Shown here piece by piece: positions 9,253 to 57,726 of a stretch of DNA of 64,000 nucleotides (the first letter of the stretch is position 1; every line of letters starts with the position of its first letter). Made by a program: the position numbers and the translations under genes. The stretch lies in the NCBI RefSeq assembly GCF_000484535.1, contig NC_022600.1:992001-1056000 (forward strand), given 5' to 3'. The notes beneath the pieces were generated by a model. That model saw only the letters and a program-made list of their open reading frames with translations. It had not been told where the DNA came from and did not search any database. Source of the stretch: Gloeobacter kilaueensis JS1. GTDB taxonomy: Bacteria > Cyanobacteriota > Cyanobacteriia > Gloeobacterales > Gloeobacteraceae.

Positions 9253-10161
9253 ATGCGCATCGCCGTGCTCGGGGCCGGCAGCTGGGGAACGACACTCGCG
9301 CAACTGGCCACCAGCCTCGATCACCGTGTCCAGCTCTGGTCGCGCACAGGTCCGCTCGCACTCTCTGCCGTGCTGGCCGATGCCCAGGTGGTGCTGAGTT
9401 GCCTGCCGATGCGGGCGGTAGCAGGGGTGATCGAGCAGGTTGCAGCCGCTGGTCTGCCGCCCGGCGCGATCCTGGTCAATACGACCAAGGGGCTCGACGC
9501 CACCGCCCGGCCCGCCTCGCAACTCTGGCGCTCGGCATTCCCTGACTGGCCGCTGGTGGTGCTCTCGGGGCCGAACCTGGCCGCTGAAGTGCGCGCCGGC
9601 TTACCGGCGGCGACGGTGGTGGCGAGCGCTTCGCCGGAGGCAGCCCGGCGCATCCAGCAGTGCTTCGCCTCCGAGCGCTTCCGCGTCTACACCAGTGGCG
9701 ACCAGCTCGGCGTCGAGTTGGGCGGTGTGCTCAAAAACGTCGTCGCGATCGCTGCCGGGGTGAGCGACGCTTTGGGCCTGGGGGCAAACGCGAAGGCGGC
9801 GCTCATCACCCGTGGCCTCGCTGAGATCATCCGGGTGGGAACCCACTGGGGGGCTCAGGCTGAGACGTTTTATGGCCTCTCGGGGCTGGGCGATCTGCTT
9901 ACTACCTGCAACAGCGCCCTCAGCCGCAACTATCAGGTGGGCTTTGGCCTGGGCGAGGGCCGAACCCTGTCAGATATTCTTGCCCAACTGGTGGGTACCG
10001 CCGAGGGCGTCAACACCGCCTCGATCCTCGCAGACTACGCCCGCAGGGTCGATCTCGAAGTGCCGATTACCGATCAGGTGTGCGCCCTGCTGGGCGGCGA
10101 ACGCCCGCCCCAGGTGGCCCTGGCTGCCCTGATGAGCCGCAGGCTTAAAGACGAAAGCTAG
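9253..10161 (+). CDS. gpsA: Glycerol-3-phosphate dehydrogenase [NAD(P)+]
   Basis: 302 residues, somewhat short for GpsA. It converts dihydroxyacetone phosphate to sn-glycerol-3-phosphate for membrane lipid synthesis in the cytoplasm. Signatures: Rossmann motif LGAGSWGTTLAQLA at the N-terminus, SGPNLAAEV, the catalytic Lys in GGVLKNVVAIAAG, the helix LGLGANAKAALITRGLAEI and FYGLSGLGDLLTTC. The substrate-binding Asn-Thr region (GTAEGVNTA) is present. It follows a small secreted-protein gene without a gap; pyrC lies 58 bases downstream on the same strand. Confidence 0.95.
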   Translation: MRIAVLGAGSWGTTLAQLATSLDHRVQLWSRTGPLALSAVLADAQVVLSCLPMRAVAGVIEQVAAAGLPPGAILVNTTKGLDATARPASQLWRSAFPDWPLVVLSGPNLAAEVRAGLPAATVVASASPEAARRIQQCFASERFRVYTSGDQLGVELGGVLKNVVAIAAGVSDALGLGANAKAALITRGLAEIIRVGTHWGAQAETFYGLSGLGDLLTTCNSALSRNYQVGFGLGEGRTLSDILAQLVGTAEGVNTASILADYARRVDLEVPITDQVCALLGGERPPQVALAALMSRRLKDES

Positions 10162-10219
10162 CGGCGGCAACTTCCAGTGCCCAGACAGTTAAGCTGAAGG
10201 CGTAGAACCTGGATACTGG

Positions 10220-11542
10220 ATGACTTCTTTGCTGCTGCGCAACGTGCGCATGGTGCTCGACGACGGTTCGCTCTACGCCGGGGATCTGCTCTGTCGCGAC
10301 GGAACGATAGCGCAGATCGATCGCGCCCTGAATGAGGCCGCCGAGCGGACGATCGACGGCGGTGGCCGGGTGCTCTTGCCGGGGGTGATCGATCCTCAAG
10401 TCCACTTTCGCGAGCCGGGCAAAGAATACAAGGAAGACCTGCAAACCGGTTCCTGGGCCTGTGCGCGCGGCGGAGTCACCTCGTTTCTGGAGATGCCCAA
10501 CACCAGCCCCGCCACCACCACCTGCGAACTGCTCAAGGACAAACTCGCGCGGGCGGCGAGCAAGTGCGTCGTCAACTACGGTTTTTTTATCGGGGCCACC
10601 TCGGACAACATCGCCGAGTTACAACAATCGATTGGTCTCAGTTGCGGCGTCAAGATCTTTATGGGCGCTTCTACCGGTGACCTGCTCGTAGACGATCCGG
10701 TAGCGCTGGAGCGCATCTTCAAAGAAGTGCCGCACCTCATCGCTGTTCACGCCGAGGACGAGGCGCGCATCCGGGAGCGCACGGCGCTGTTTGCTGACCG
10801 CACCGACCCCCACGTCCACTCCGAGTTGCGCGACGACGAGTGCGCCCGCCTCGCTACTGACCTGGCGCTGACACTTTCTAAGCGCTACCGGCGGCGGCTG
10901 CACATCCTGCACCTATCCACGGCAGCAGAAGTGGCGTTGCTCGCCGCCGACAAACCCGCCTGGGTCACTGCCGAAGTGATCCCCCAGCACCTGTTTCTCT
11001 CGACAGCAGCCTACGATGCGATCGGGATGCGCGCCAAGCAAAACCCGCCCCTGCGCTCAGAAGCGGACCGACTGGCGCTGTGGGCCGGCTTGCGCTCGGG
11101 GCTCATCGACTTTGTGGCCACCGACCACGCACCCCACCTGCTCTCCGAAAAAGACAGAGACTACTTTCAGGCCGCCGCCGGGATGCCGGGGGTCGAAACC
11201 TCACTCCCCCTGATGCTCACCGCCCTGGTGCGCGGCGAGGTGAATTTCGAGCAGATCGTCCGCTGGATGAGCCGGGCAGCGGCCCACGCCTACAACATTC
11301 CCAATAAGGGCTCGATCCGGCCCGGCTACGACGCCGACCTGGTGCTTGTGGATCTGGAGACCACCCGGCCCGCCCAGGCGGCCCGGATGGCGAGCCGCTG
11401 CGGCTGGACTCCTTTTGAAGGCTGGCCGCTCACCGGCTGGCCGGTACTGACGGTGGTGGGGGGCCAGGTAGTCTTTGAAGAAGACGAAGTTCAGAAGGAC
11501 GTGCGCGGTCGCGCCCTCAGCTATTCGCCGGGGCAATCCTGA
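10220..11542 (+). CDS. pyrC: Dihydroorotase (class I)
   Basis: 440 residues, as expected for class I dihydroorotase, which closes carbamoyl aspartate to dihydroorotate in pyrimidine synthesis. Metal-site motifs are in order: DPQVHFREPG near residue 60, the carboxylated-Lys segment VKIFMGASTGDLL, IAVHAEDEARI, LHILHLST and the catalytic VATDHAPH. The C-terminus has the usual amidohydrolase strand (DADLVLVDLE). An allantoinase-type role is possible in this superfamily but less likely. The 3' end overlaps the convergent lipoprotein gene by 26 bases. Confidence 0.92.
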   Translation: MTSLLLRNVRMVLDDGSLYAGDLLCRDGTIAQIDRALNEAAERTIDGGGRVLLPGVIDPQVHFREPGKEYKEDLQTGSWACARGGVTSFLEMPNTSPATTTCELLKDKLARAASKCVVNYGFFIGATSDNIAELQQSIGLSCGVKIFMGASTGDLLVDDPVALERIFKEVPHLIAVHAEDEARIRERTALFADRTDPHVHSELRDDECARLATDLALTLSKRYRRRLHILHLSTAAEVALLAADKPAWVTAEVIPQHLFLSTAAYDAIGMRAKQNPPLRSEADRLALWAGLRSGLIDFVATDHAPHLLSEKDRDYFQAAAGMPGVETSLPLMLTALVRGEVNFEQIVRWMSRAAAHAYNIPNKGSIRPGYDADLVLVDLETTRPAQAARMASRCGWTPFEGWPLTGWPVLTVVGGQVVFEEDEVQKDVRGRALSYSPGQS

Positions 11543-11996
11543 GCACGAAGACGCTCACCTCCGGCGTATCGCCGTAGTACACCTTCACCGTTCCGGGATC
11601 GGGAAGCTTGAGGTAGACATCGCCCTCAGCCGCCTCGCGCGGCGCAATTTCTTTTTGGGGCAGGGTCGTCTTTGTCGGTTCATAGCCAGCTACCGGGTCG
11701 GCAGTTCCTTCGTTGGGACTGACATAAAAGTTGTTGGGGCCAATTTTTTGCGGCAGCGGCACCGCTCCCGGATTGAAGAGCCGCACGCTCAGCTTTGCCT
11801 CACTCGCGCTCAGGCGCTCGGCTTTTTTGACCTGCAGAATGATCCCTTCGGGTGTGCGCACACCGGCGACCAGACCCTTGCTGCGCGCTGCTTTTGATTG
11901 CTCTGAGCCGATATTGGCGGGCCTGGTATTGGCCGAGCAGCCTGTTAGAAGGGCCAGGACCACTACCCACCCGATAACGATGTCGATGCGTTTCAC
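11517..11996 (-). CDS. Small lipoprotein of unknown function
   Basis: 159 residues. The N-terminus MKRIDIVIGWVVVLALLTGC ends in a lipobox (LLTGC), so the mature protein is probably membrane-anchored through Cys20. The remainder is a beta-rich domain (LSVRLFNPGAVPLPQ, VKVYYGDTPEVSVFVLRI) resembling DUF4352-like immunoglobulin folds. No function is assigned. The last 26 bases overlap the end of pyrC on the opposite strand. Confidence 0.65.
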   Translation of the reverse strand: MKRIDIVIGWVVVLALLTGCSANTRPANIGSEQSKAARSKGLVAGVRTPEGIILQVKKAERLSASEAKLSVRLFNPGAVPLPQKIGPNNFYVSPNEGTADPVAGYEPTKTTLPQKEIAPREAAEGDVYLKLPDPGTVKVYYGDTPEVSVFVLRIAPANS

Positions 11997-45797: not shown

Positions 45798-46921
45798 TTT
45801 GGTCCTACAAAAGTCAGCGCTTTTTCTTGAGAAGGAATCCAGGGGATAGGACCGATAAAGTACGGCGTGCAGCCCAGGTCGATGAAGGCGGTTTTGATGC
45901 AGACTCTTAGATAAAGACCAAAATCAGCCGTTCCCGCCTTTTCGTTTACGGCGGTGAGGACGATCTTGCCCCAGGGACCGAAGGGCAGGCGGCCCGTGGG
46001 CTCCTTGCCTGTATTGACGGCAGCGAGGGGACCGTGACCGCCGCGCACCAGTTGGGTTTTGCCGATCCACTGCTTGCCTGATAGGGGGTTTCCCAATTCG
46101 ACGTGCAGGCAGTCGCGGTGGCAGGGCACAGCGAAGCCCTCGATGTCAGAACCGGTGATCGTGCGGATGCGCTCCTGCTCGATCGCCGCTAGAGGAATAT
46201 CCACCAGACCGGCGATGCCGCTGAAGCGGCGCGGAAAGCGGGCAAAGCGGGCAAAGGGAATGTCGGCCAGCCCCGGAATGTCGCGAATGAACTGGCCTGC
46301 CCACCCGGCCAGCCGGTCAATCGCTACCTGCTCGATGCCCGGTAGCCCCGAAAGGGCGTAGCGGGCCAGATCGAGGGTGCCCAGGGGCAACTCGCCAAAA
46401 CCCGGAACGTACTGGATGAGGTCGATGAGCCGCTCGTAGGGCGGCGTTCCGCCCTTAAAAAAGTAGACGGCCAGATCCCGCAGCAGGGGGACTGCCTCCG
46501 GCGGCAAATTCTCGTAGGCGAGCGCCTGGACGATGTCGGCCACAGTGTTGATGGCCAGAAGCTTCAGATCCGACAGGCGCAACTGCGACAGCTGCAGGCT
46601 CTGGGTGAGGCCCAGGGCGGCAATCTGTTCGAGGGAGAGTTGCTCCGGGCCAAAGGCTGTCGCCATATCCCCCAGCAGGATCGTGGCGTCCGCCCGCGCC
46701 CCCGATTGCCAGAGGCGGCTCGGATCGTAGCCCAAAGCGGCGATAATTGCGGGATCGGCAATCTGGATGCTGCCCCCCTCGGCGATCGGAGGCAGGTTGG
46801 CAAAGGTAATCCGCTCGAAGTCGGGCAACGGCACCCCGGCGGACCAGCGCACCGGGATCGCCCAGCAGGCTGTGGGCGAAACAATCGAAAGGACGATGAT
46901 CAGCAAGAGCAATCGGCGCAT
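45794..46921 (-). CDS. Exported protein of a conjugation-type operon, function unknown
   Basis: 375 residues with a signal peptide (MRRLLLLIIVLSIVSPTACW). The middle contains short Leu/Pro repeats (IPGLADIPFARFARFPRRFS, LPLGTLDLARYALSGLPG) that look like a solenoid. The C-terminal domain has conserved Cys pairs (VPCHRDCLHVELG, RVCIKTAFIDLGCTPYFIGP) and EPTGRLPFGPWGKIVL. I recall similar proteins next to TraD-like genes in cyanobacterial plasmids, but no function is known to me. It overlaps the coupling ATPase gene by four bases. Confidence 0.6.
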   Translation of the reverse strand: MRRLLLLIIVLSIVSPTACWAIPVRWSAGVPLPDFERITFANLPPIAEGGSIQIADPAIIAALGYDPSRLWQSGARADATILLGDMATAFGPEQLSLEQIAALGLTQSLQLSQLRLSDLKLLAINTVADIVQALAYENLPPEAVPLLRDLAVYFFKGGTPPYERLIDLIQYVPGFGELPLGTLDLARYALSGLPGIEQVAIDRLAGWAGQFIRDIPGLADIPFARFARFPRRFSGIAGLVDIPLAAIEQERIRTITGSDIEGFAVPCHRDCLHVELGNPLSGKQWIGKTQLVRGGHGPLAAVNTGKEPTGRLPFGPWGKIVLTAVNEKAGTADFGLYLRVCIKTAFIDLGCTPYFIGPIPWIPSQEKALTFVGPN

Positions 46922-46926
46922 GGCAG

Positions 46927-47394
46927 TCAGTGCAGGGCAGTGGGTGCGGTGGGCGGTTGGGAGGCAGGTAAGATTTCGAGGCCGTGGTAGCGCACTTCGT
47001 CGGTGCGCGGGTTAACCCGGTCCTGAAAGCGGATGGCAAAGTGCAGCAGGTTCATCCGGCCCTGGCTGTCGCTGGTGAGAATCTTGAGGGTAGTCCAGGT
47101 GCGGTTGCTGGGCAGCAGCGTCGGCAAATTGACCAGCCTAAGGCTCAAGATCTGGCCGGTGCGGTCGGTGCGGGCCACCACCCGCGACGGATCTTCTACC
47201 CACCAGTCGCTGATTTTTTCACCCGTAGCAAGCAGGCTGATGTCAAAACCCACCCCCCGGTAGAGGTCGATGACGAAGACGGGCCTGCCGCCAGTACCAG
47301 TGGCGGTCTGCTGATCGATGCGGGCGATGATAGAAGCACCTGCGCTGCCCGCCAGCCAGAACACCAGTGCCCAGGCGGCAGCCAGAGCCCTCAC
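46927..47394 (-). CDS. Exported protein, possibly VirB9/TraK-like
   Basis: 155 residues with a signal peptide (MRALAAAWALVFWLAGSAGA). The rest is beta-rich: VFVIDLYRGVGFDISLLATG, KISDWWVEDPSRVVARTDRT, WTTLKILTSDSQGRMNLLHF. VirB9 and TraK proteins share this kind of N-terminal secreted beta domain that joins the VirB10 ring, and the position between VirB10-like and coupling genes fits; the assignment rests on this. It overlaps the VirB10-like gene by four bases and is five bases from the next. Confidence 0.5.
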   Translation of the reverse strand: MRALAAAWALVFWLAGSAGASIIARIDQQTATGTGGRPVFVIDLYRGVGFDISLLATGEKISDWWVEDPSRVVARTDRTGQILSLRLVNLPTLLPSNRTWTTLKILTSDSQGRMNLLHFAIRFQDRVNPRTDEVRYHGLEILPASQPPTAPTALH

Positions 47395-48692
47395 AGCCGC
47401 ACCTCCCGAACAAAGAGCAGTTCGACCGCCGTACCGCCGGGGATGAGCCAGAGACCGGGCCGATCGAGCACCTGCTGTACTGCCTGCTGGTTGCGCGAGC
47501 GGATCACCCGCCCCAATTCGCCAAAAAGACCACTGCCGAGGGCGGCAAGTGGGTTGGGGCGGCCAAAGGTGGTGGTGGTCGAGATGCCGCCAAAGCCGCT
47601 GCTCTGCGTGCTGCTGCTGGCCCGGTTGAGGATGGCCAGTCCCTCTTCCGCGCCTTTAAGCAGGGCTTGACCGGCGTCGAGCCCGGCCACCTCGCCGCCC
47701 CGGTCCTGGCGATTGGCGACGAGGGGCAGGCCGCCCACCGCCCGGATACTCACCCCCTGCAGGGGCACCTCCCGGTTGCTGCTGCGCAGAGCCACCGCCA
47801 CGAGCGATACCAGGCCGTTGGCTGTGATGCGCTGCACCTGGGCAAGGATGCGCGTACCGACCGGCAGTACCGGCTCGCCCGCCTCGGTGAGCACCGGCTC
47901 AGTGAGCACGACCACGTAGCGCTCGTCGTCAGTAGCCGCATTCGTCGCCTGGGTCGTCTGCTCGCGCAGGATGGGCCGCTCCAGCACGCCGACGGCCAGG
48001 GTAGTGGCGGCGATCGCGCCTGTGGTGGCGGAGGCGGATAGCCGCTGCTCAGCCGCTCCTTCGAGGTCCGGATCGAGGCTGGTGGCCTGGGGCTGAAGGA
48101 CAGGCCGTGCGGGGGCTGTGGCACTTCCGCCTGCTATTGCCGGCGGAGAGAGCACGGGGGTATTGCTGCGGGTCGGCTGGGCCTGGGGCTGATCCTGGCT
48201 GGAGCCAAGGTAGGCGAGCCGGACTGGATTGCCCGATGGCGATGGGGCCACAGGCGGTAGCAGGCGCGGGGCAAAGCTCATCTGGGCCGGTGGCGGTGGG
48301 GGCGGGAGGACCGTCCGCTCCGCCTGGGCAGTCAGAACACGCGGCCTGCTCGTCGCCGGGGGAGGTGCCTGGCGCTTTTTGTCCCCCTGCAATCGTTCGA
48401 GCATCTGGCGCTGGTCGGCGAGGGCCACCTCCGCCCGCAGCCGCTCCAACTCACCGCCGCCGGCAGGAACTGCCGGTGGTGGTGTCGCCGCCGGCTGTGC
48501 CCGCGCTGGAGAGGAGCCCGTCCGGGCAGCGCTCTGAAAAAACAGGCCGTTGAGCACCCCGCCGATGCCCAGGGCCGGCAGCAGGGTGATCACTCCGACA
48601 ATCGCCACCTTGCGGCCCGGCGTCAGCCAGCTGAGCAGTTGTTCGCGCCGGTCGGCGGACTCGAGTTTCTCGAATTCTTCTAGCTGCGACAT
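47391..48692 (-). CDS. VirB10/TraB/TrbI-like protein
   Basis: 433 residues. Topology matches VirB10: a short cytoplasmic N-terminus, one membrane helix (VAIVGVITLLPALGIGGVLN, about residues 29-48), a long Pro-rich periplasmic linker (about residues 60-220) and a beta-barrel C-terminal domain including VLPVGTRILAQVQRI, VSLVAVALRSSNREVPLQGV, and LWLIPGGTAVELLFVREVRL. VirB10 spans both membranes of a type IV secretion channel. It follows the VirB8-like gene after a 14-base gap. Confidence 0.75.
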   Translation of the reverse strand: MSQLEEFEKLESADRREQLLSWLTPGRKVAIVGVITLLPALGIGGVLNGLFFQSAARTGSSPARAQPAATPPPAVPAGGGELERLRAEVALADQRQMLERLQGDKKRQAPPPATSRPRVLTAQAERTVLPPPPPPAQMSFAPRLLPPVAPSPSGNPVRLAYLGSSQDQPQAQPTRSNTPVLSPPAIAGGSATAPARPVLQPQATSLDPDLEGAAEQRLSASATTGAIAATTLAVGVLERPILREQTTQATNAATDDERYVVVLTEPVLTEAGEPVLPVGTRILAQVQRITANGLVSLVAVALRSSNREVPLQGVSIRAVGGLPLVANRQDRGGEVAGLDAGQALLKGAEEGLAILNRASSSTQSSGFGGISTTTTFGRPNPLAALGSGLFGELGRVIRSRNQQAVQQVLDRPGLWLIPGGTAVELLFVREVRL

Positions 48693-48706
48693 GACAGATC
48701 ACTCCT

Positions 48707-49429
48707 TCAAGAAGGGCTATTGGGCTCCAGTGAGCGCATCGCCACGATCTCCAGACCACTGGCGCGGATGCGGGCCACGGCCTGCTCCAGAGGTGTTTGT
48801 AAAAGACCCTCCACCGGCAGGGGCGCATCGATGGCCCGCACGGTGATTTGCTTGTTGAAGGGAATCGGTTCACCTTCGACGCGCTCGGGGCTGTAGACCA
48901 CCTGGGCACCGACGACATTCACCGTCCAGGTGTAGGGCTGGCCCGCTACCGGCTGGGGCTGGCCGATCAAACTGGCATTGAAGATGACCTGGCTGTTGCG
49001 GCCTGAAACAACGCGGGAACTGAGGGCTGCCAATTGGCGCAACAGTTCGGAGCGCAGATCCTCGCTCAGGCAAAAACCGGCCTGATAGACGCTGCTCGGG
49101 AGCCGCGCCCGGTTACTGAGCACGATACCCGGATCGCGGCTGGCGCTCTGTCCCGGCAGCGACGCCGCTATCGTGTAGCGCCAGGTGAAGAGCATCTGCA
49201 CCGATTCACCCACAAAGCGGCGAATCACCTCTGGCTCCCGCTCATAGTGCGCCTGCGCTGTTACGGCGATGCTGCGCCCATCGCTCAACTGCACCAGGCT
49301 CGGCAGGGGCCGGTGCGCCAGAATCTGCAATTGAACAGTATTCCAGATTGTCAAACAGCTGAGCAAAAAGCCGATGACCACTGCCACCAGTACAAAACTG
49401 CCCAAAAGTCCATTGCCGCTCGTCTTCAA
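48707..49429 (-). CDS. VirB8/TraE-like inner-membrane protein
   Basis: 240 residues: a short N-terminus, one membrane helix (GSFVLVAVVIGFLLSCLTIW) and a periplasmic domain with an NTF2-like pattern (IRRFVGESVQMLFTWRYTIA, LLRQLAALSSRVVSGRN, YTWTVNVVGAQVVYSP, KQITVRAIDA). This matches the TraE/VirB8 topology, an assembly hub of type IV secretion. It is the first gene of the leftward operon; the tRNA-Asn lies 158 bases upstream on the other strand. Assignment depends on topology and neighbours more than on a hard motif. Confidence 0.6.
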   Translation of the reverse strand: MKTSGNGLLGSFVLVAVVIGFLLSCLTIWNTVQLQILAHRPLPSLVQLSDGRSIAVTAQAHYEREPEVIRRFVGESVQMLFTWRYTIAASLPGQSASRDPGIVLSNRARLPSSVYQAGFCLSEDLRSELLRQLAALSSRVVSGRNSQVIFNASLIGQPQPVAGQPYTWTVNVVGAQVVYSPERVEGEPIPFNKQITVRAIDAPLPVEGLLQTPLEQAVARIRASGLEIVAMRSLEPNSPS

Positions 49430-49587
49430 GGCTGTCCGCCACTCGACAGGGGCAGCTTAACGCAACCGTTGTTTTTCCCAAAAATGGGAGACAAAAAACC
49501 GGTACAACGGTGTCCGGCGACGGACGGGAACACGGCGAGCAGACCCTTGCCGTTCTCTTTGTGCAGAGGTTAAAGTTAAAGACGCAT

Positions 49588-49659
49588 TCCTCGGTAGCTC
49601 AGCGGTAGAGCAGCCGACTGTTAATCGGCTGGTCGCTGGTTCGAATCCAGCCCGGGGAG
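49588..49659 (+). tRNA. tRNA-Asn (anticodon GUU)
   Basis: 72 bases folding into a standard cloverleaf: acceptor TCCTCGG/CCGGGGA with one G-T pair, D arm GCTCAGCGGTAGAGC, anticodon stem-loop CCGAC-TGTTAAT-CGGCT giving GTT, T arm CTGGTTCGAATCCAG and discriminator G. CCA is not encoded. It lies between the secretion-type operon and a PIN-domain remnant, a common integration hot spot. Confidence 0.95.
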
Positions 49660-49716
49660 CTACTTCGATACAAAACTGCGAGATTTGGCGTTCGCAGTCT
49701 GCACTCCAGATGCCTC

Positions 49717-49981: not shown

Positions 49982-50587
49982 TTAATTTGGTTTGTCCGTC
50001 TGGGCATCGCTTACGGCGTTGTCGAGGACACCGGCCAGAGTTGCGACTACTTCCTGAACCTGAGACCAGCGCTGCTGTTCGGGATGATCGGGGTCTTTGC
50101 CGGTCAGTTCGCGCGTTCCGAGGGTCTCGATGATTGCTTTGAGCTGTTCCTGGTGGGCCCGGTTCTCGAAGTTGACCGCGTGCAGGGGGGCGACCGCCGC
50201 CGCTAGATCCCCCGCCGCCACCTGAGCAGCCCGGCACACCAGGGTGCCGTTCATCACCTGTTCTTGCTTGAGCAGGGCGTAGCGCACGACCCGCTCGTGA
50301 AGGACACCCTCGGAGTCGCTGATGAGCCGGTTCGATTCCTGGAGGGTTCTAATCGTGGTGGCGCTGGGTTCCGCCTTCAGTTCAAGCCTGGCAGCGACCG
50401 CGTCCAGAGTCCCGGCGTTTTTTTGATCGTCTCGAAAGATTTTGCCCAGGCGCTCGCAAATTTCTGGATCAGCGCAGTCGGACAACAGGCGCTGTCCATC
50501 GTCGATGAGCGAATTTTGTAAAGCTTTCATGTCCGCCAGCTTGGCCGCAATGGCGGAGCGGTCCTTATCCTCTGTGTGCGGTTGCAT
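49982..50587 (-). CDS. Helical protein of unknown function
   Basis: 201 residues from the ATG at 50587 (AGGAGCAGGTGAG upstream; a frame to 50650 would add a low-quality extension). The composition is strongly helical with heptad-like spacing (IAAKLADMKALQNSLIDDGQ, ICERLGKIFRDDQKNAGTLD, LLKQEQVMNGTLVCRAAQVA, HQEQLKAIIETLGT), like a four-helix-bundle or ferritin-like fold. No metal motif is convincing. The gene stands alone between the PIN remnant and a gene-free stretch. Confidence 0.55.
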   Translation of the reverse strand: MQPHTEDKDRSAIAAKLADMKALQNSLIDDGQRLLSDCADPEICERLGKIFRDDQKNAGTLDAVAARLELKAEPSATTIRTLQESNRLISDSEGVLHERVVRYALLKQEQVMNGTLVCRAAQVAAGDLAAAVAPLHAVNFENRAHQEQLKAIIETLGTRELTGKDPDHPEQQRWSQVQEVVATLAGVLDNAVSDAQTDKPN

Positions 50588-51321
50588 CTCACCTGCTCCT
50601 CTACGCCTGCTTGCTGATCTATTGTTGGAACTACATCTGTGTGTATCCATCTCTCCCCAGACGGATGTCCTGGCCGAAACGTGCTTTTGTCCTGCATTTC
50701 TATCAAAAGGCAGGCAGATACTACCGGTGCTGACTCCAGAGCTTATCTAGACTCAGGTGCTATTTACCGTGCCCTGGCCGCCGTGATACGGTTTCACAGG
50801 AGTCCAGAAGGTTGCGGAGCAGATGTCTTCATCTTGCTTTGCACGCCAGCTGCACTCTACCGACTACTCTGTCTGTCCCTCCCCCCGAGCCGTCTGCTGC
50901 GTCCACACCCAGGGATGCGCTTAAAGAACAAGTACAGCTAAGCATCAGCTACGTCTATCTGTTATAAGCTGCAGGCGGGTCTGGATTTCCAGTCCTGCTC
51001 GCAGGCTTTTGGGCTGTCTGCCGTCCCATGCTCCCCGATCCCGGCAGACGCAAGCCTGGGCTTTGACCACGTCTAGAATTGGGCGACAAGGCTTTCACAG
51101 CATCTTCATAGTGAGCCGGAGTGGAGATGTTATGTTGGCTGCTAGATATATTGCTTGTCCTGATCGATGCCCACCGCCTTTTTCGCCGGCCTTACCAGTC
51201 TGTCTGTTCATTTCAGACAGTCAGGCAGCCAGTTGGCTGGTTGCTGGCGGCAAGAAGGCAGGCAGGTGGTGGATTGCCTGCTATTCCGCTGTGAAATCCC
51301 CCCCACTGTCGGTGCGCGTCC
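50588..51321. other. 734-base region with no recognised gene
   Basis: No frame here resembles a protein and base composition is uneven, with C-rich stretches near 50880. One inverted repeat at 51200-51220 is listed separately. The promoter of the histidine kinase operon should be in the right half, but no convincing -35/-10 pair was found. Confidence 0.5.
51200..51220. promoter_or_regulatory. Inverted repeat upstream of the histidine kinase
   Basis: CTGTCTG (51200-51206) and CAGACAG (51214-51220) are perfect inverted copies seven bases apart, about 100 bases before the kinase start. It could be a regulator site or a transcript hairpin. Confidence 0.35.
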
Positions 51322-53637
51322 ATGAAGCTTTCTTTGCCGCTGTTGGCCTGGAAGAAGGGGGCTCAGCCGATCAGCGACAACCCCATGCCATTTTTGTCCA
51401 GCCGGTTGACCCTGATGCTGATGGTGGCTGTCGTCGTCATCGGTATAGCAGCAATTCAGCTCAGTGTCACCGACGTGCGCCGCAAATTGTTGGTCACAGA
51501 ACAGTACATGATGGAAGGCGATCTCATTCAGTTTGAGACCGTCCTGGCTGCCAAACAAAAAGAAATTGAAAACGGTTTACAGCACGCTTATCTGCGCTTC
51601 AAAAAAGAAGGAATCCACACCGATAACTTAAAGGAACTGGTCGTCGCGAGCCACCTCAACTTTATTTCGATCCTCGACGATCAAGACCGGATCGTCGGCG
51701 GTGCCAGCCGCATTCTCCGCCGCAGCGAAGGACTTTCAAAAAACGCCGATCTATTCGGTCATCCGGTCAGCAGACCGGACAAATGGCTGCCGACCTACAG
51801 GACGCCTGTTCCCTTCGCCTTGCTCGACTACGAGCCGAGCGCCGTTCAACGCGGTGCCCAACTGCGGATGGGTCTGTTGCAGGACGCGCACCTGAACCAG
51901 GCCGGAGCGCTCAGCAATTTCGAGCTGCTCGATTGGCGCGAGATGGCGATTTTGGGCATCGACAGGCAGGCAGGATACTTTCAGCCAAAAGCGGCGCTTC
52001 GATCACAAGTCGGGCTTGCGATCGTCGCTATTCAGCCTCTGGTGCGCTCGGGCAAAACCTACCGGATCGTCGCCGGCTATCTCATCAACAACAATCCCGA
52101 GCTGGTCGATCAGATTTGTTATCTGACGGGCAAACCAGCGATTTCGATCGCCGCCGGTGGCTACCGGATCAGCACCACCCTCGCTGCTAGAGGTGGCTGG
52201 GTGCGGTTGCTGGGCCAGAAGATGCCGGGTGCGATCGTGCGCGCCACTCTGGAGCAGGCCGGTCCCTACTGGGGGGTCGAGGAGATTGCCGGAGGCCGTT
52301 ATGCCTTTGGTGCCGTTCCACTCTACGATCACAGGCTCAAATCCCCGCGCATCGAGGCAGCACCGATCGGTATGCTCGAAATTGGTGTGCCGATGGCCGA
52401 GGCGGTCGAAAGCCGGATCAAGCTGAGCACCGACAATATCTACCAGATCGGCGCGCTGGGCCTGGTAACAGTGGTGGTCTTCGGCGGTGCGGTCTTCTAT
52501 ATGATTCGCCGGGGTGAACTGAATAACTGCGACCTGCACCAGTCCAAGGACCTGATCTTGGAGTCGGCGGCAAACGGTATCCTGGGCTTTAACCAGCGGG
52601 GCCAGTGTACCTTTGCCAACTCGGCAGCCCTTGAGCTGTTGCGCTGGACAGCCGAAGAATGCATTCTGCAAAAAGATATTCACAGCGTGCTGTCGCTACT
52701 GTACTGGAGCGACGAAAAGATCGGCTGCCAGATCGAGCAATTCGACCTCGGGAACACCACCCAGCCCAACTGTTCGTTTACGCGCGGCGATGCCTGGCTA
52801 CTGAGAGCGGGCGGCAAATCGGTGCCGGTCGAGGTGAAGTTGACCAGAGCCAGCCATCCGAGTAGCCAGGTCAGCCTGGTGCTCACCCTCACCAACCTCG
52901 AAGAGCGGCAGCGCGCCGAAAAACAGGGCCGTCTGGCAGCGGTACTGGGCGAGCGCAACCGGATGGCGAGCGAAATTCACGACAATCTGGCCAACATCTT
53001 CGCTGGCCTGATGTTGCAGATCAAGTCGATCTTAAGCGCCCTCCAAAAGCCCACGATCGCCGAGGAGCAACGGCGATTAATTAGCGTCGCGACCTTGATT
53101 CAAAACACGGCTCAGTACGGCCTGCAGGAGATGCGGCGCTCGCTGTGGCTACTTCGGCCCGACGCCGTTGGTTACTCGGACTTGAGCACCAGTCTGCAGC
53201 AGTGCATTGAGCGGTTGTCCGTCGATCAAAGCTTCCACGTCGAATTTCATTGCAGCGGCACCCCTTACTGCCTCGACGATGCCGTTGAAAAAGAACTGCA
53301 ACTGCTTGGCCAGGAAGCGCTGACCAATGCCTGCAAGCACGCCGCCGCTCAGCGCATTTCGGTCTCGCTCACTTTTGAACCGGACCAGTTGACGATGCGC
53401 ATTCAAGATGATGGTTGCGGCTTTGATCTCAAAGGCTACAACCATCGACAGCACAGTCCCCAAACCCAGGATGATGTTCACTTTGGTCTGTTCAGTATGT
53501 TCAGACGAGCAGAAGAAATCGGTGGGCAACTTGTGATCGACACCGCCGTGGGCCAGGGGACCACGATTACCGTTTGCCTGCCGATAGCGGCATGTGAAGA
53601 AACCAGAGGAGTCCTCGATGGAAGCGAATCTTACTAA
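51322..53637 (+). CDS. Membrane sensor histidine kinase, NarX/DesK type
   Basis: 771 residues. Two membrane helices (about 29-49 and 375-393) enclose a 325-residue extracytoplasmic sensor domain. A PAS-like domain follows (ILESAANGILGFNQRGQCTF), then a HisKA_3 dimerisation helix with the phospho-acceptor His553 in NRMASEIHDNLANIFAGLML, and an ATPase domain (LLGQEALTNACKHAAAQRIS with Asn669, then IQDDGCGFDLKG). It phosphorylates the LuxR-type regulator encoded next, whose start overlaps this gene by 20 bases. The signal sensed is unknown. Confidence 0.92.
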   Translation: MKLSLPLLAWKKGAQPISDNPMPFLSSRLTLMLMVAVVVIGIAAIQLSVTDVRRKLLVTEQYMMEGDLIQFETVLAAKQKEIENGLQHAYLRFKKEGIHTDNLKELVVASHLNFISILDDQDRIVGGASRILRRSEGLSKNADLFGHPVSRPDKWLPTYRTPVPFALLDYEPSAVQRGAQLRMGLLQDAHLNQAGALSNFELLDWREMAILGIDRQAGYFQPKAALRSQVGLAIVAIQPLVRSGKTYRIVAGYLINNNPELVDQICYLTGKPAISIAAGGYRISTTLAARGGWVRLLGQKMPGAIVRATLEQAGPYWGVEEIAGGRYAFGAVPLYDHRLKSPRIEAAPIGMLEIGVPMAEAVESRIKLSTDNIYQIGALGLVTVVVFGGAVFYMIRRGELNNCDLHQSKDLILESAANGILGFNQRGQCTFANSAALELLRWTAEECILQKDIHSVLSLLYWSDEKIGCQIEQFDLGNTTQPNCSFTRGDAWLLRAGGKSVPVEVKLTRASHPSSQVSLVLTLTNLEERQRAEKQGRLAAVLGERNRMASEIHDNLANIFAGLMLQIKSILSALQKPTIAEEQRRLISVATLIQNTAQYGLQEMRRSLWLLRPDAVGYSDLSTSLQQCIERLSVDQSFHVEFHCSGTPYCLDDAVEKELQLLGQEALTNACKHAAAQRISVSLTFEPDQLTMRIQDDGCGFDLKGYNHRQHSPQTQDDVHFGLFSMFRRAEEIGGQLVIDTAVGQGTTITVCLPIAACEETRGVLDGSESY

Positions 53638-54307
53638 CAGTGCCCCGATCCGGATCATGACCGCCGACGATCAGCCTGTCGTCCGCGCCGGTCTGGTCTG
53701 GATGCTCGAACAGGCTCCCGATATGGCAGTCGTCGCCCAGGCGAGCAATGGCCGCGAAGCTTTTGATCTGGCGATGACCCACCGGCCCGATGTGATCTTG
53801 ATGGACCTGCGGATGCCGGTACTGAGTGGTGTCGATACGATTAAATTAATTCGCAAGCACTGGCCAGAGGCGCGGATCATCATTCTCACCATCTTTGAAG
53901 GCAACGACGACTGCATCCGGGGCAAACAGGCCGGGGCGGTCGGCTATCTGCTCAAGGATGCCCCCCAGGAAGAACTGTGGGGAGCGATCCGGGCTGTTCA
54001 TCAGGGACTGGAGCATATTTCTCCCAAGATTGCCGCCAAGCTCGTCAGCAACGAAGAGACCGGCGAGCTGACAGCGCGAGAAAAAGAAGTTCTGCGCCTG
54101 GTGATTGCAGGCAAGAGCAATCAGCAGATTGCGGAGGAACTCAATATTTCTGTGGCAACGGTCAAATTGCACACCGGCACTGCGTATCGCAAGTTGGGCA
54201 TCAGCGGCGAGAACAAGCGCCTGCAGGCGGCCAACAAAATTCGTCACCTCAATCTTTTTGATCAGCACGAAGTCTTCCAGAATCCCCATTCCGCAATCAC
54301 CAACTGA
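53618..54307 (+). CDS. NarL/LuxR-family response regulator
   Basis: 229 residues from the ATG at 53618 (AGAGGAG upstream), overlapping the kinase gene by 20 bases, which indicates coupled translation. The receiver domain is complete: acidic pair in IMTADDQPVVRAGL, phospho-acceptor Asp in VILMDLRMPVLSG and Lys in GYLLKDAPQEEL. The output domain is a LuxR helix-turn-helix (LTAREKEVLRLVIAGKSNQQ, IAEELNISVATVKLHTGTAY). Its likely target is the peptide/radical SAM unit 32 bases downstream, with no terminator between. Confidence 0.93.
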   Translation: MEANLTNSAPIRIMTADDQPVVRAGLVWMLEQAPDMAVVAQASNGREAFDLAMTHRPDVILMDLRMPVLSGVDTIKLIRKHWPEARIIILTIFEGNDDCIRGKQAGAVGYLLKDAPQEELWGAIRAVHQGLEHISPKIAAKLVSNEETGELTAREKEVLRLVIAGKSNQQIAEELNISVATVKLHTGTAYRKLGISGENKRLQAANKIRHLNLFDQHEVFQNPHSAITN

Positions 54308-54339
54308 GTTTCCCGTATCCGACCCCGAAGGAGCAAATC

Positions 54340-54567
54340 ATGTCCACGCGTGAAAGTCGATCTTCCCTCGTTCACACGGCCATCTTGTGTGCGATGCTCG
54401 CTGTCACCCTTCCCCACCTGCCCCAGCACAATTCGTTGTTGCAGAATCTACTGGTTGAACCGGACCCGAGCGATCCCGATCCGATTCCTGAACCTGGTTT
54501 CAATCGCGGTCCCTACAGGCCGCCCCAGCTGCAGTTGCATGTCCCTTCAGCCAGCGTACCTGTTTAA
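54340..54567 (+). CDS. Candidate precursor peptide of a radical-SAM RiPP system
   Basis: 75 residues with a good ribosome site (AAGGAGCAAATC-ATG). Residues 10-28 (LVHTAILCAMLAVTLPHLP) are hydrophobic and signal-peptide-like; residues 40-62 are Pro/Asp-rich (EPDPSDPDPIPEPG) and contain aromatic-centred tripeptides F54-N55-R56 and Y59-R60-P61; the tail is LQLHVPSASVPV. It directly precedes a radical SAM/SPASM gene, as precursor genes do. Three-residue cyclophane enzymes act on aromatic-X-X motifs, so FNR or YRP could be the modified core. No identified family fits, so the function is inferred from context. Confidence 0.6.
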   Translation: MSTRESRSSLVHTAILCAMLAVTLPHLPQHNSLLQNLLVEPDPSDPDPIPEPGFNRGPYRPPQLQLHVPSASVPV

Positions 54568-54594
54568 CTTGAAACACTGACGGTAGTCTCCCCC

Positions 54595-54638
54595 AACCTC
54601 GGCTCGTTGAGGTTTCTCTGGCTGCCTCAGGCAGTCAG
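54595..54638 (+). promoter_or_regulatory. Two hairpins between precursor peptide and radical SAM gene
   Basis: AACCTC/GAGGTT (54595-54600 with 54609-54614, eight-base loop) and CTGGCTGCC/GGCAGTCAG (54618-54626 with 54630-54638, three-base loop, one G-T pair) lie in the 86-base gap between the two genes. Neither has a T-run directly after it until TTTTT just before the ATG. They could lower read-through into the enzyme gene or protect the peptide message. Confidence 0.45.
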
Positions 54639-54653
54639 TCGCCAGAGGTTTTT

Positions 54654-55829
54654 ATGATTAATCAGTTCATCTTGAAGGTTGCCTCGCGTTGCAACATGCG
54701 GTGCAAATATTGTTATGTTTACGAACATCAAGACCAGTCCTGGCGCGATCAGCCGGCTTTGATGTCCGAGACGGTGATGCGCATGGCGGCCCAACGCATC
54801 GCCGAACACTGGCAGGGATCTGAGGAGCGTCTGCCGGTGCGGCTCGTGCTGCACGGAGGCGAGCCTTTGTTGTTGGGCAAAGCTAAAATGCGTCGCCTGA
54901 TTACTATCTTTCGCGAGGTGTTCGATCCACTCGGTATCAACTACACATTCTTGATGCAGTCGAACGGCTTGCTGTTCGATCCGGAGTGGGTCGAACTGTT
55001 GCACGAGCTGCGGGTAGGCGTCGGCATCAGTCTGGATGGGCCACGAGCCTTTCACGATCGGCACCGGCTCGATGTGCAGGGTATGGGTACGCACCGGCGC
55101 GTCACCGACACCATCGAGCTGTTGCAGGGCACTGCTGCCGGGCAGGCTATCTTTGGCGGCACGATCAGTGTCCTCAACCGCGACTGCCCGCCGGAGGAAC
55201 TGTACGCCTTTTTGCGAGGACTGGGACTGCAAAAGCTCGGCTTTTTGCTGCCCGATCACAACTTCGAGCATCCGCCAGCCGGCTGGCGGGGTCCAGAGCA
55301 GCCGACGGGGTTCGGAGAATACCTGATTCGACTTTTTGACTGCTGGATTCAAGAAGCCGATCCGCAGGTAAGCATCGGTTTTTTTGAGATGCCGATGCGG
55401 CTTTTGCGCGGATCGTCCCTGCGCTGGGGCGACGAGTACTGGGGACTTACTCCGGCGATGCTCGCGGTGATCGAAACCGACGGTTCGATCGAGCCGGTGG
55501 ACTACCTCAAAGTCTGTGCGGCGGGAATTACCAAGACCAGCTTGAACGTCGCCACCGATCCGATCGCGGCCCTGCTCGCCACCTCGATCCTGCAGCCGCT
55601 CGTCGAGCGCGAAGCGCACCTGGCCCCTGTCTGCCAGAGCTGTCGCCTCAAATCGGTCTGCGGCGGTGGTCTGCTTGCCCATCGCTACCACCAGGGCCAC
55701 TTCAGCAACCCGAGTGTCTACTGCCACGACATTCAGCAACTGCTCGATCACATGGCAGCGACAATTACCCTCTTCGAGTTGGCGGCAAGCTGGCAAAAAA
55801 AAGCGGACGCCGTTTCCATCGTCAATTAG
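54654..55829 (+). CDS. Radical SAM/SPASM peptide-modifying enzyme
   Basis: 391 residues. The 4Fe-4S/SAM motif is CNMRCKYC (Cys13, Cys17, Cys20) right at the start, followed by VRLVLHGGEPLLLGKAKM and the Asp-rich strand VGISLDGPRAFHDRHR. The C-terminal SPASM region has VCAAGIT, PVCQSCRLKSVCGGGLLAHR and FSNPSVYCHD, the cysteines of two auxiliary clusters. CGGG...NPSVYC is shared with the FxsB/GrrM/XyeB group that installs side-chain crosslinks (cyclophanes) in ribosomal peptides. AGAGG precedes the start. It sits after the candidate precursor and ends before a hairpin/T-run. Confidence 0.9.
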   Translation: MINQFILKVASRCNMRCKYCYVYEHQDQSWRDQPALMSETVMRMAAQRIAEHWQGSEERLPVRLVLHGGEPLLLGKAKMRRLITIFREVFDPLGINYTFLMQSNGLLFDPEWVELLHELRVGVGISLDGPRAFHDRHRLDVQGMGTHRRVTDTIELLQGTAAGQAIFGGTISVLNRDCPPEELYAFLRGLGLQKLGFLLPDHNFEHPPAGWRGPEQPTGFGEYLIRLFDCWIQEADPQVSIGFFEMPMRLLRGSSLRWGDEYWGLTPAMLAVIETDGSIEPVDYLKVCAAGITKTSLNVATDPIAALLATSILQPLVEREAHLAPVCQSCRLKSVCGGGLLAHRYHQGHFSNPSVYCHDIQQLLDHMAATITLFELAASWQKKADAVSIVN

Positions 55830-55885
55830 GCTGGCGGTTCAAAACCTATAATCTCGTGCAGCCGTGCCTGTCTGGGCCGCCTGCT

Positions 55886-55940
55886 CCCTTGGGTTATCCC
55901 AGGGGCGCGGCGGGAGATCTGCACGTTTTGGTTTTTTTAC
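55886..55940 (+). terminator. Hairpin and T-run after the radical SAM gene
   Basis: CCCTTGGG (55886-55893) and CCCAGGGG (55898-55905) pair around TTAT, flanked by GCCGCC/GGCGG that can extend the stem. T-rich sequence (GTTTTGGTTTTTTTAC) follows about 20 bases later. Likely the end of the peptide/enzyme transcript, although the distance to the T-run is long. Confidence 0.5.
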
Positions 55941-56066
55941 GGGCGGGCCTAACCGTTTTTCCGGGTAGGCGCTAGCTGATTCGCCGATGGTCTTCGCCCC
56001 TGGGGTACGACATGCTTGGAGGACAGGACAGATAGCCTGTCTTTCCCATTCGGAGTACCGATTGTT

Positions 56067-56987
56067 ATGACTGCTTCGAGCACCCTATCCAGTATTTCCA
56101 GCGAACTGGCTGCCACCGTCGAGCGGGCCAGTCCAGCGGTCGTGGCCGTCAATGCCCGAACGCGGATTGCCGCGAGTGGCATCCACTGGCGCGAGGGGAT
56201 CGTCGTCACCGCCGAGCACACCCTCAAGCGCGACGAAGAAATTACCGTCAGTTTCGCAGATGGCCGTAGCGGCTCGGCCACCCTCGTTGGCCGCGATCCC
56301 GGCAGCGATCTGGCCGTCTTGCGGGTCGCCGATCTGCCGGAGGCGACTACACCCTTCGCTGCCGCCGACAGCCTCAAAGTTGGCCATCTGGTACTCGCCA
56401 TCGCCCGCCCCGGCGAGGGTGGTCCGAGTGCCAGCCTGGGCACCGTCAGCACGATCAGTGGTCCCTGGCGCACCTGGCGCGGCGGGCAGATCGACAGGCT
56501 CATCCGCCTTGACCTCAACTTTTATCCTGGCTTCTCCGGCGGTGCCCTCGTCGATACTGCCGGGCAGATCGTGGGCCTTACCACTGCCGGTCTATCGCGC
56601 AGCGCTGTGGTCGCCGTGCCGGTAAGCACGATCGAGCGCACCGTCGATCAACTGCTTGCCACCGGGCGCATCGCCCGTGGCTACCTGGGCATCGGTATGC
56701 AGCCGGTGCGCCTGCCGGATGCCCTCAAAGCGCAGCTGAATCTTGCGGGTAACGGCGGTGTGATCGTCGTCAACCTCGAACACGAAGGACCGGCGGAGCG
56801 CTCCGGCGTTCTCATCGGCGATGTACTCGTCGCCATCGACGGCACCACGATCGATGACACCGACGACGTGCTCGCGCTATTAAGCCCCGAACGGGTGGGC
56901 AAGAGCGTTCCGGTCCAGGCGGTGCGGGGCGGGCAACCGGTTGCACTCACCATCACGATCGGCGAGCGGCCACGGAGGGGAGGATGA
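56067..56987 (+). CDS. HtrA/S1C-type serine protease with PDZ domain, no export signal
   Basis: 306 residues. Trypsin-like triad: His in VVTAEHTLKRDEEITVSF, Asp in DPGSDLAVLRVADL and Ser in NFYPGFSGGALVD. A PDZ domain follows (GYLGIGMQPVRLP, GVIVVNLEHEGPAERSGVLI, GDVLVAIDGTTIDDTDDVLA). Unlike HtrA/Deg proteins it starts directly with the catalytic fold (LSSISSELAATVERASPAVV) and lacks a signal peptide, so it is probably cytoplasmic. Genes of this kind are commonly paired with a LuxR-type regulator, as here 76 bases downstream. A link with the RiPP genes is not required. Confidence 0.85.
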   Translation: MTASSTLSSISSELAATVERASPAVVAVNARTRIAASGIHWREGIVVTAEHTLKRDEEITVSFADGRSGSATLVGRDPGSDLAVLRVADLPEATTPFAAADSLKVGHLVLAIARPGEGGPSASLGTVSTISGPWRTWRGGQIDRLIRLDLNFYPGFSGGALVDTAGQIVGLTTAGLSRSAVVAVPVSTIERTVDQLLATGRIARGYLGIGMQPVRLPDALKAQLNLAGNGGVIVVNLEHEGPAERSGVLIGDVLVAIDGTTIDDTDDVLALLSPERVGKSVPVQAVRGGQPVALTITIGERPRRGG

Positions 56988-57063
56988 TCGCCTCCGGCCC
57001 GGCTCGCGCTATCTCGACGGATACCGTCCACACCAATGACCAACCGAGCTATCCGGAGGCGGC

Positions 57064-57726
57064 GTGATCCGGGTGCTCATCGTCGCAGCGGCGGCAGTTG
57101 TCAGGGCCGGGCTGGAGAGTGTGATCGCCGCCAGTCCAGCGCTTGCCGTCGCCGGTCGTCCGGTCAGCTTGCTGCAACTGGCCCGGCAACTGGAGGAACT
57201 GCTGCCCGACGTGGTGCTCATCGATCTTGAAAGCGAAGCCGACGAGGCGGCCCTCGCCCGCCTGCCGCTGCCGGTCTTTGAACTGGACAAACAAATAGAA
57301 GCACCGCCTCTGGTCGTGCTCGTCGAGGAAGCAACCGGCAACTGGACAGCGGAGGCGCTGCGCGCCGGGGTGCGATCGATCCTGCCGCGCACGGCGACCG
57401 CCACCGAAATCGTTGCCGCTGTCGAAGCCGCCGCTAACCGCCTCGTCACGATTCATCCCGACTTGATCGAGTCTTTGATCGCCTCGCTGCCGGAAGCCCG
57501 CTCCACCCAGGCAAGCCCCCCCGCCGATCAGCCGCTCACCCCCCGCGAAGCGGAAGTGCTGGCGATGCTCGCCGAGGGTCTGGGCAACAAGACGATCGCG
57601 AAGCGGCTCACCATCTCAGAGCACACCGTCAAATTTCACATCAGCTCGATCTTTGGCAAGCTGGGTGCCACCAGCCGCACCGAAGCTGTCACCCTGGGCG
57701 TCCGTCAGGGTCTGATCTTGCTTTAA
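57064..57726 (+). CDS. LuxR-family response regulator with degenerate receiver domain
   Basis: 220 residues from a GTG start. The C-terminus is a LuxR helix-turn-helix (LTPREAEVLAMLAEGLGNKT, IAKRLTISEHTVKFHISSIF). The receiver-like N-terminus has lost the acidic pair (VLIVAAAAVVRAGL has Ala where Asp-Asp is expected) and the Lys (ILPRTATATE), but keeps Asp in VVLIDLES. It is therefore probably not phosphorylated in the normal way. It follows an S1C protease gene and may be controlled by protein contact or proteolysis. Confidence 0.88.
   Translation: MIRVLIVAAAAVVRAGLESVIAASPALAVAGRPVSLLQLARQLEELLPDVVLIDLESEADEAALARLPLPVFELDKQIEAPPLVVLVEEATGNWTAEALRAGVRSILPRTATATEIVAAVEAAANRLVTIHPDLIESLIASLPEARSTQASPPADQPLTPREAEVLAMLAEGLGNKTIAKRLTISEHTVKFHISSIFGKLGATSRTEAVTLGVRQGLILL

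Follow-up and report, generated by a model that had tools for sequence, protein, structure and literature searches.

The triceptides of the YhhA/YhhB type, for which Nguyen 2020 and Sugiyama 2022 are said to be the main papers, are among the described systems closest to the locus reported here. In R. etli (L179), the small peptide YhhA is encoded just 5' of its radical SAM/SPASM enzyme, YhhB; it ends in SYDRMHHRHNRS and carries the aromatic-x-Arg motifs YDR, HHR and HNR. A second system is FxsA/FxsB, a family whose precursors end in FxSxx; in Nocardia (L180) the peptide contains FNSFIAPVK and a gene with an HEXXH domain comes after the pair. The GrrA/GrrM (OscA/OscB) systems of cyanobacteria belong, by the name of model TIGR04261, to the cyclophane-forming radical SAM/SPASM group, and ChlB is reportedly titled a multiple cyclophane synthase. 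According to the available part of its description, the radical SAM domain of ChlB belongs to a fused radical SAM/HExxH protein (PMC12636437).

We analysed a 64,000-nucleotide stretch of the Gloeobacter kilaueensis JS1 chromosome, from base 992001 to base 1056000 (the window), in which a small peptide is likewise encoded just 5' of a related radical SAM/SPASM enzyme. The peptide has an F-x-R motif like the aromatic-x-Arg motifs of YhhA, with Phe instead of Tyr or His. Unlike YhhA, whose best 14-residue hydropathy mean is 0.57, it has a hydrophobic leader (2.11), and the 8-kb R. etli stretch has no kinase, whereas the window pair is preceded by one. Neither FNSFIAPVK nor the HEXXH-domain gene of the Nocardia system occurs in the window block, the peptide differs from GrrA in having no Gly-rich repeats, and the enzyme, unlike ChlB, is unfused. 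Two plasmid-borne systems offer further comparisons. On a Calothrix plasmid, an enzyme with 39.8% identity is preceded by a peptide that has no hydrophobic leader and terminates in LFSRCP, an aromatic-x-Arg motif again. A Spirosoma oryzicola plasmid (L178:2205-9215) combines in one run a kinase, a regulator, two small peptides, a 36.5% identical FxsB-like radical SAM enzyme and an ABC exporter; it differs from the window in its Gly-Gly type leaders, its peptidase-domain exporter, the absence of an F-x-R core and a kinase in which no Cache region is seen by eye. Among the papers listed in a literature search, judged by titles and abstract openings, also for those naming Gloeobacter, none gave an account of a kinase-linked cassette in this genus. 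On balance, we consider it probable that the window carries a triceptide-like RiPP cassette linked to a two-component system of its own: a small peptide is accompanied by a maturase from the cyclophane group, and an F-x-R core is found in four such peptides.

The gene block in the window

The kinase, regulator, peptide and enzyme genes follow each other in this order on one strand (Table 1). The regulator gene overlaps the end of the kinase gene and has an alternative, longer start at GTG 53594, and 86 bp separate the stop codon of the peptide from the start of the enzyme. Both the peptide and the enzyme genes lie where the first-pass annotation had placed them, and its description of a good ribosome site, of a peptide without Gly-rich repeats and of an end other than FxSxx was borne out, the latter two points by eye; the C-terminus reads SASVPV. 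Its proposal of a signal peptide stood in part, for the hydrophobic stretch is present, but no A-x-A cleavage site was seen in the window copy. That annotation had overlooked two upstream genes that accompany the pair repeatedly, for the histidine kinase and the response regulator, as well as the exporter genes of relatives.

Table 1. Features of the block, with coordinates in the window
Feature	Position	Strand	Basis
Histidine kinase, 771 aa	51322..53637	+	Pfam sCache_3_3, PAS, HisKA_3, HATPase_c; homologous kinases at other loci
LuxR-type response regulator	53618..54307	+	Pfam Response_reg, GerE; ATG 53618 behind GAGGAG
Ribosome site AAGGAG of the peptide gene	54328..54333	+	Sequence; 6 nt 5' of ATG 54340
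Candidate precursor peptide, 75 aa	54340..54567	+	ORF; ATG 54340, stop codon ends 54567
Hydrophobic leader stretch VHTAILCAMLAVTL, peptide residues 11-24	54370..54411	+	Mean Kyte-Doolittle 2.11
Core G53-F54-N55-R56, proposed crosslink Phe54-Arg56	54496..54507	+	GFxR conserved; crosslink putative
Radical SAM/SPASM enzyme, 391 aa	54654..55829	+	Pfam Radical_SAM; NCBIfam nearest FxsB, YhhB

Few regulatory signals were recognised around these genes. One sigma-70-like site was found in 50600-56200, against 2.1 expected, and Rfam gave no match in 50000-57500. A search for a shared regulator-binding site in eight upstream regions found no 12-base word common to any two of them and one 11-base word in two. 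Directly 5' of the enzyme start, a stem-loop followed by a run of T (54611-54650) perhaps reduces the enzyme relative to the peptide. In a hairpin test the whole gap reached a z of only -1.21 (-2.18 for a sub-stretch chosen by eye), and the hairpin was set aside as evidence. A PDZ/trypsin-like protease encoded downstream (56061-56987) was considered as a dedicated leader peptidase, a role that it may have but that we do not favour: the region 55948-57725 matches other places in three other Gloeobacter genomes, two of which (G001 and G002) have no such radical SAM enzyme, so that the protease is not specific to the block.

Recurrence of the enzyme and its gene neighbourhoods

A search of 59 genomes gave enzyme homologues with more than 300 bits in three of them, at two places in the own genome, one in G003 and two in G005. 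We take G003 to be Gloeobacter morelensis, as its gene run is the same as that of plasmid pGMOR1 of this species. Among 388 genomes of the class, five enzymes score at least 559, and the next best scores are 303.5 and 286.5. At an E-value of 1e-50, the enzyme is matched in 1 of 63 genomes in the order of G147 and in none of 36 in the order of G117. A wider enzyme search kept 80 of 245 relatives, each at most 29% identical, and 184 plasmid records (30 of them listed) hold an enzyme match; a kinase and a regulator share the run in two of the five plasmid neighbourhoods read. The peptide/enzyme/kinase block is probably a real, lineage-restricted peptide-making system, with similar blocks in a few related genomes.

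Two more distant genes were noted in passing. In G147, a related radical SAM gene (L173:4919-10021; 303.5 bits to the profile) lies in the same run as an ORF that by eye is TfuA-like. On the G003 chromosome (L113:7935-9556), a radical SAM gene that is only distantly related (27% identical) has a 140-aa ORF just 5' of it, and the two may form a GrrA/GrrM-type pair.

The kinase belongs to the enzyme's gene run at four of the five loci; at the fifth, the contig stops short. The fullest run is that of the G. morelensis plasmid (L110), with an HlyD-type adaptor, peptide, radical SAM enzyme, ABC ATPase, MacB/FtsX permease, kinase and regulator, hence a complete MacAB-type set of permease, ATPase and adaptor. 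The paralogous locus of the own genome (L112) has peptide, radical SAM enzyme, ATPase, permease, kinase and regulator. Its ATPase has no front part (116 aa, covering only profile positions 89-136; L112:8542-8892, minus strand), and an ORF at 10627-11019 (minus strand) resembles by eye the end of an HlyD-type adaptor, with no Pfam match; from these sequences, the L112 exporter looks decayed. At L109, the run comprises peptide, radical SAM enzyme, permease and kinase, and neither an ATPase nor a regulator was found in it. A further locus, L172, has the end of an adaptor gene followed directly by the ATPase, the enzyme being absent from between them, and also has a permease, a kinase and a regulator.

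A kinase also occurs with a candidate peptide alone. In the own genome near 210.7-213.6 kb (L171), a 59-aa ORF (L171:12429-12608, minus strand) with a ribosome site, a hydrophobic leader and an F-I-K core (NFIKAIDPGP) lies 477 bases upstream of a kinase (9690-11951, minus strand) that is 37% identical to the window kinase. No radical SAM gene was found in this 19-kb stretch, nor was an exporter recognised in it by eye.

These neighbourhoods bear on what the peptide may be for. The permeases, of the MacB_PCD/FtsX type, adjoin the kinase at L109, L110, L112 and L172 and lean to export or immunity, and the gene set of L172 indicates that a module of permease, kinase and regulator can exist without a peptide. 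The mature peptide might accordingly be an antimicrobial, in which case the kinase, joined in relatives by the MacB-type permease, would act in a sensing and export-immunity module and not as a peptide receptor. We hold this reading to be possible, if doubtful, given that the window block has neither an exporter nor a MacB-type permease and that the orphan L171 kinase has a candidate peptide with no recognised exporter nearby. The constancy of the kinase as partner and the orphan kinase-peptide pair lean instead to signalling. In its strongest form, signalling would mean that the cyclophane peptide is a pheromone in early-branching cyanobacteria, with the adjoining kinase as its receptor, paralogous pairs as separate channels and the orphan L171 pair served by the enzyme of another locus. 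As drawn from gene layout, this extension falls on the unlikely side.

Likely kinship of the small peptides

The first-pass annotation had made the peptide/enzyme pair depend on a conserved small ORF upstream of orthologous enzymes, and such an ORF lies directly upstream of four of the five: in the window and at L112, L109 and L110. For the fifth enzyme (G005:C416) no such ORF was found upstream, and the contig ends within the enzyme. The four peptides have a hydrophobic stretch in common (14-residue means 2.11-2.89) and similar cores, GFNRGPYRPP in the window, GFPRDKPP at L112, GFRRFGPP at L109 and GFPRGRIPP at L110. Among 1344 ORFs of 40-130 aa from eleven sequences, the pattern GF.R.{1,4}PP occurs in four, exactly those upstream of the enzymes; the looser GF.R.{0,4}P occurs in ten, six of them elsewhere. 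Both patterns were devised after the four peptides had been inspected. The recurrence of a small ORF with this core motif directly upstream of four of five homologous enzymes upholds the pair.

Profile searches tell a less uniform story. Leave-one-out profiles, run over 1071 ORFs, recover the peptides of L112 (E 2e-11), L110 (E 1.3e-6) and L109 (E 0.0081); these profiles contain the window row and derive from one common alignment. A profile of the three other peptides did not recover the window peptide among 411 window ORFs (rank 9, E 9.4). Including the peptide of L171 did not help (rank 6, E 5.2), nor did realignment without the window peptide (rank 14, E 15). A four-row profile that includes the window peptide ranks the L171 peptide first of 780 ORFs, with a weak E-value of 0.11, and a five-row alignment searched over six genomes returned its own five members and otherwise nothing better than E 0.32. 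In the full-length alignment, the core of the window peptide is not aligned with the cores of the others. In pairwise comparison with L171, one shuffle in 1000 outscored the window peptide; the corresponding numbers were 10 for L112, 166 for L110 and 238 for L109. The results for L171 and L112 are generous because shuffling disrupts the hydrophobic run. As profiles built without it miss it, the kinship of the window peptide to the other three is likely on the strength of place, design, motif and weak pairwise similarity, profile similarity failing to reveal it.

This failure favours another reading, in which the window ORF is not the substrate and the enzyme modifies a different one, for example the peptide of the paralog, or the pair is decaying; the absence of an exporter from the window and the truncated ATPase of the L112 paralog point the same way. 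We judge it unlikely, since the ORF has a good ribosome site, the expected position and a GFxR...PP core, the cysteines of the enzyme are intact, and the pairwise scores against L171 and L112 are rarely surpassed by shuffled sequences.

The kinase ectodomain as a marker

Pfam itself detects one Cache domain, sCache_3_3, in the window kinase, and finds it in all six kinases tested. The predicted structure of the ectodomain (residues 49-370; pLDDT 82.4) appears double-Cache-like, superposing on 3lid_A over 240 residues with Z 16.0 and rmsd 4.5. A profile built from six ectodomains scores above 200 bits at seven places, three in the own genome, one in G003 and three in G005, where a contig end truncates one of them, so that ectodomains above this score are confined to the three enzyme-holding genomes. 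In the remaining seven of the ten genomes there was no ectodomain match at E 1e-8, including G001 and G002, of the same genus, and G004, of the same family. Across the class, 69 of 388 genomes match at this threshold, with scores of 209-444 bits inside the three genomes and at best 146 outside, a gap partly built in because the profile was made from these very copies. The absence from G001, G002 and G004 is not built in by the profile design.

This distribution weighs against the reading that the peptide/enzyme pair is real and the window kinase and regulator are chance neighbours with another purpose. Cache-type kinases are indeed common, as the 69 class genomes attest, and the window order, with kinase and regulator first, differs from that of the other loci. 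Such an accident nonetheless seems distinctly unlikely, in view of the homologous kinases in the gene runs of most of the enzymes, the score gap between the three enzyme genomes and all others, and the lack of the ectodomain in near relatives.

Placement of the enzyme

The first-pass annotation had assigned the enzyme to an FxsB/GrrM type, of which the FxsB half stands: FxsB (TIGR04269) is the nearest curated model, at 339 bits against a cut-off of 370. Kinship with GrrM does not, the GrrM/OscB model (TIGR04261) giving 102 bits against a cut-off of 310 and the peptide having no repeats. YhhB (NF041707) follows FxsB closely, at 336 bits, again below its cut-off of 445, and XyeB reaches 146 bits. 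The FxsB and YhhB models are each matched by all five homologues, with the window E-values the best of the five for both; for the XyeB and sulfatase maturase models, another of the five outscores the window enzyme. A sulfatase-type maturase with a protein as substrate is a highly improbable identity for the enzyme: its match to that model, 151 bits, is far under the cut-off of 349 and below the FxsB and YhhB scores, and the solved sulfatase-maturating enzyme scores 78 bits against 219 for the closest solved chain, the ChlB radical SAM domain (PDB 9gm3; E 8.6e-64, residues 4-367).

The window enzyme has the radical SAM cysteines Cys13, Cys17 and Cys20 and, towards the C-terminus, the SPASM-type Cys288, Cys327, Cys330, Cys336 and Cys357. 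The first three are common to all ten proteins compared, and Cys327, Cys330, Cys336 and Cys357 to all nine whose sequences extend to this part. All five enzymes of the Gloeobacter group have Cys288, as do the Calothrix, Spirosoma and G147 enzymes; it is absent from R. etli YhhB, Nocardia FxsB and the ChlB-like enzyme of G141. The Gloeobacter-group enzymes cluster with modest support (85/75) in a tree of 11 rows, and its deeper forks are weak. The sub-cut-off scores, the cysteine pattern and the tree together place the enzyme, by its sequence, beside and not inside the FxsB and YhhB families. Its predicted structure, from an alignment of five rows, was too poor for use (mean pLDDT 60.7).

Proposed crosslink and mechanism

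The first-pass annotation had named both FNR and YRP as sites of crosslinking. YRP has no counterpart in the other peptides, whereas FNR is conserved (FNR, FPR, FRR, FPR) and has a precedent in YhhB, which according to the available part of a review joins Tyr or His to Cbeta of Arg (PMC11002830); conservation and precedent together support FNR as the site. The links named in that part of the review are Phe-Asn, Phe-Ser, Trp-Arg, Trp-Asn, Trp-Asp, Tyr-Asp, Tyr-Arg, His-Arg and His-Ala, and Phe-Arg is not among them (PMC11002830).

Extrapolating chemistry, export and regulation from gene set, recurrence, motif and domains, we propose the following course. The membrane kinase, through its Cache-type ectodomain, would sense an outside cue, and gene order suggests that the LuxR-type regulator would then control the genes. 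The enzyme would recognise the peptide and join the Phe54 ring to Cbeta of Arg56, forming a three-residue cyclophane with a loss of 2 Da; this link is put forward from the group to which the enzyme belongs and from the conservation of GFxR. The hydrophobic leader may bring the peptide to or through the inner membrane, and in relatives a MacB-type ABC pump, with an HlyD-type adaptor at one locus, may carry it outside. Secretion of a peptide toxin out of the periplasm has been reported for MacAB-TolC, in the available part of the source (PMC8277102), and a Sec-type leader would fit such a route. As the window block has no pump, its peptide would use another or stop in the periplasm; the missing pump may reflect either decay or use of another pump. 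Permeases of the MacB type are common, with 23 places in 7 of the 20 genomes searched.

Origin of the block

At the nucleotide level, the block (51322-55829) has only short matches to G001, G002 and G003, of up to 485 bases (regulator, 65%) and of 142 bases in the enzyme. The left flank (46014-49661) and the right flank (55948-57725) both match these genomes, though in separate places, which leaves no empty site to be demonstrated; the idea of a simple insertion into a locus shared with other Gloeobacter was therefore rejected. In 1-kb windows, G+C is 0.54-0.60 in the block, 0.58-0.71 to its left and 0.62-0.66 to its right. The G. morelensis copy is plasmid-borne. From these features, acquisition of the block by transfer is plausible. 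A tRNA-Asn gene (49588-49660) ends 1.7 kb left of the block, at the edge of Gloeobacter-conserved sequence, and is a possible integration point.

Implications

The first-pass annotation had expected an undescribed product from the peptide/enzyme pair; this is plausible, the enzyme class and the likely chemistry being already known. If the crosslink is made, Phe-x-Arg would be added to the links named in the available part of the review (PMC11002830), and the peptide bearing it would have a hydrophobic leader. More importantly, the repeated occurrence of such peptides together with a Cache-domain kinase provides a concrete, testable case for a role of radical-SAM peptides in sensing or signalling in Gloeobacter.
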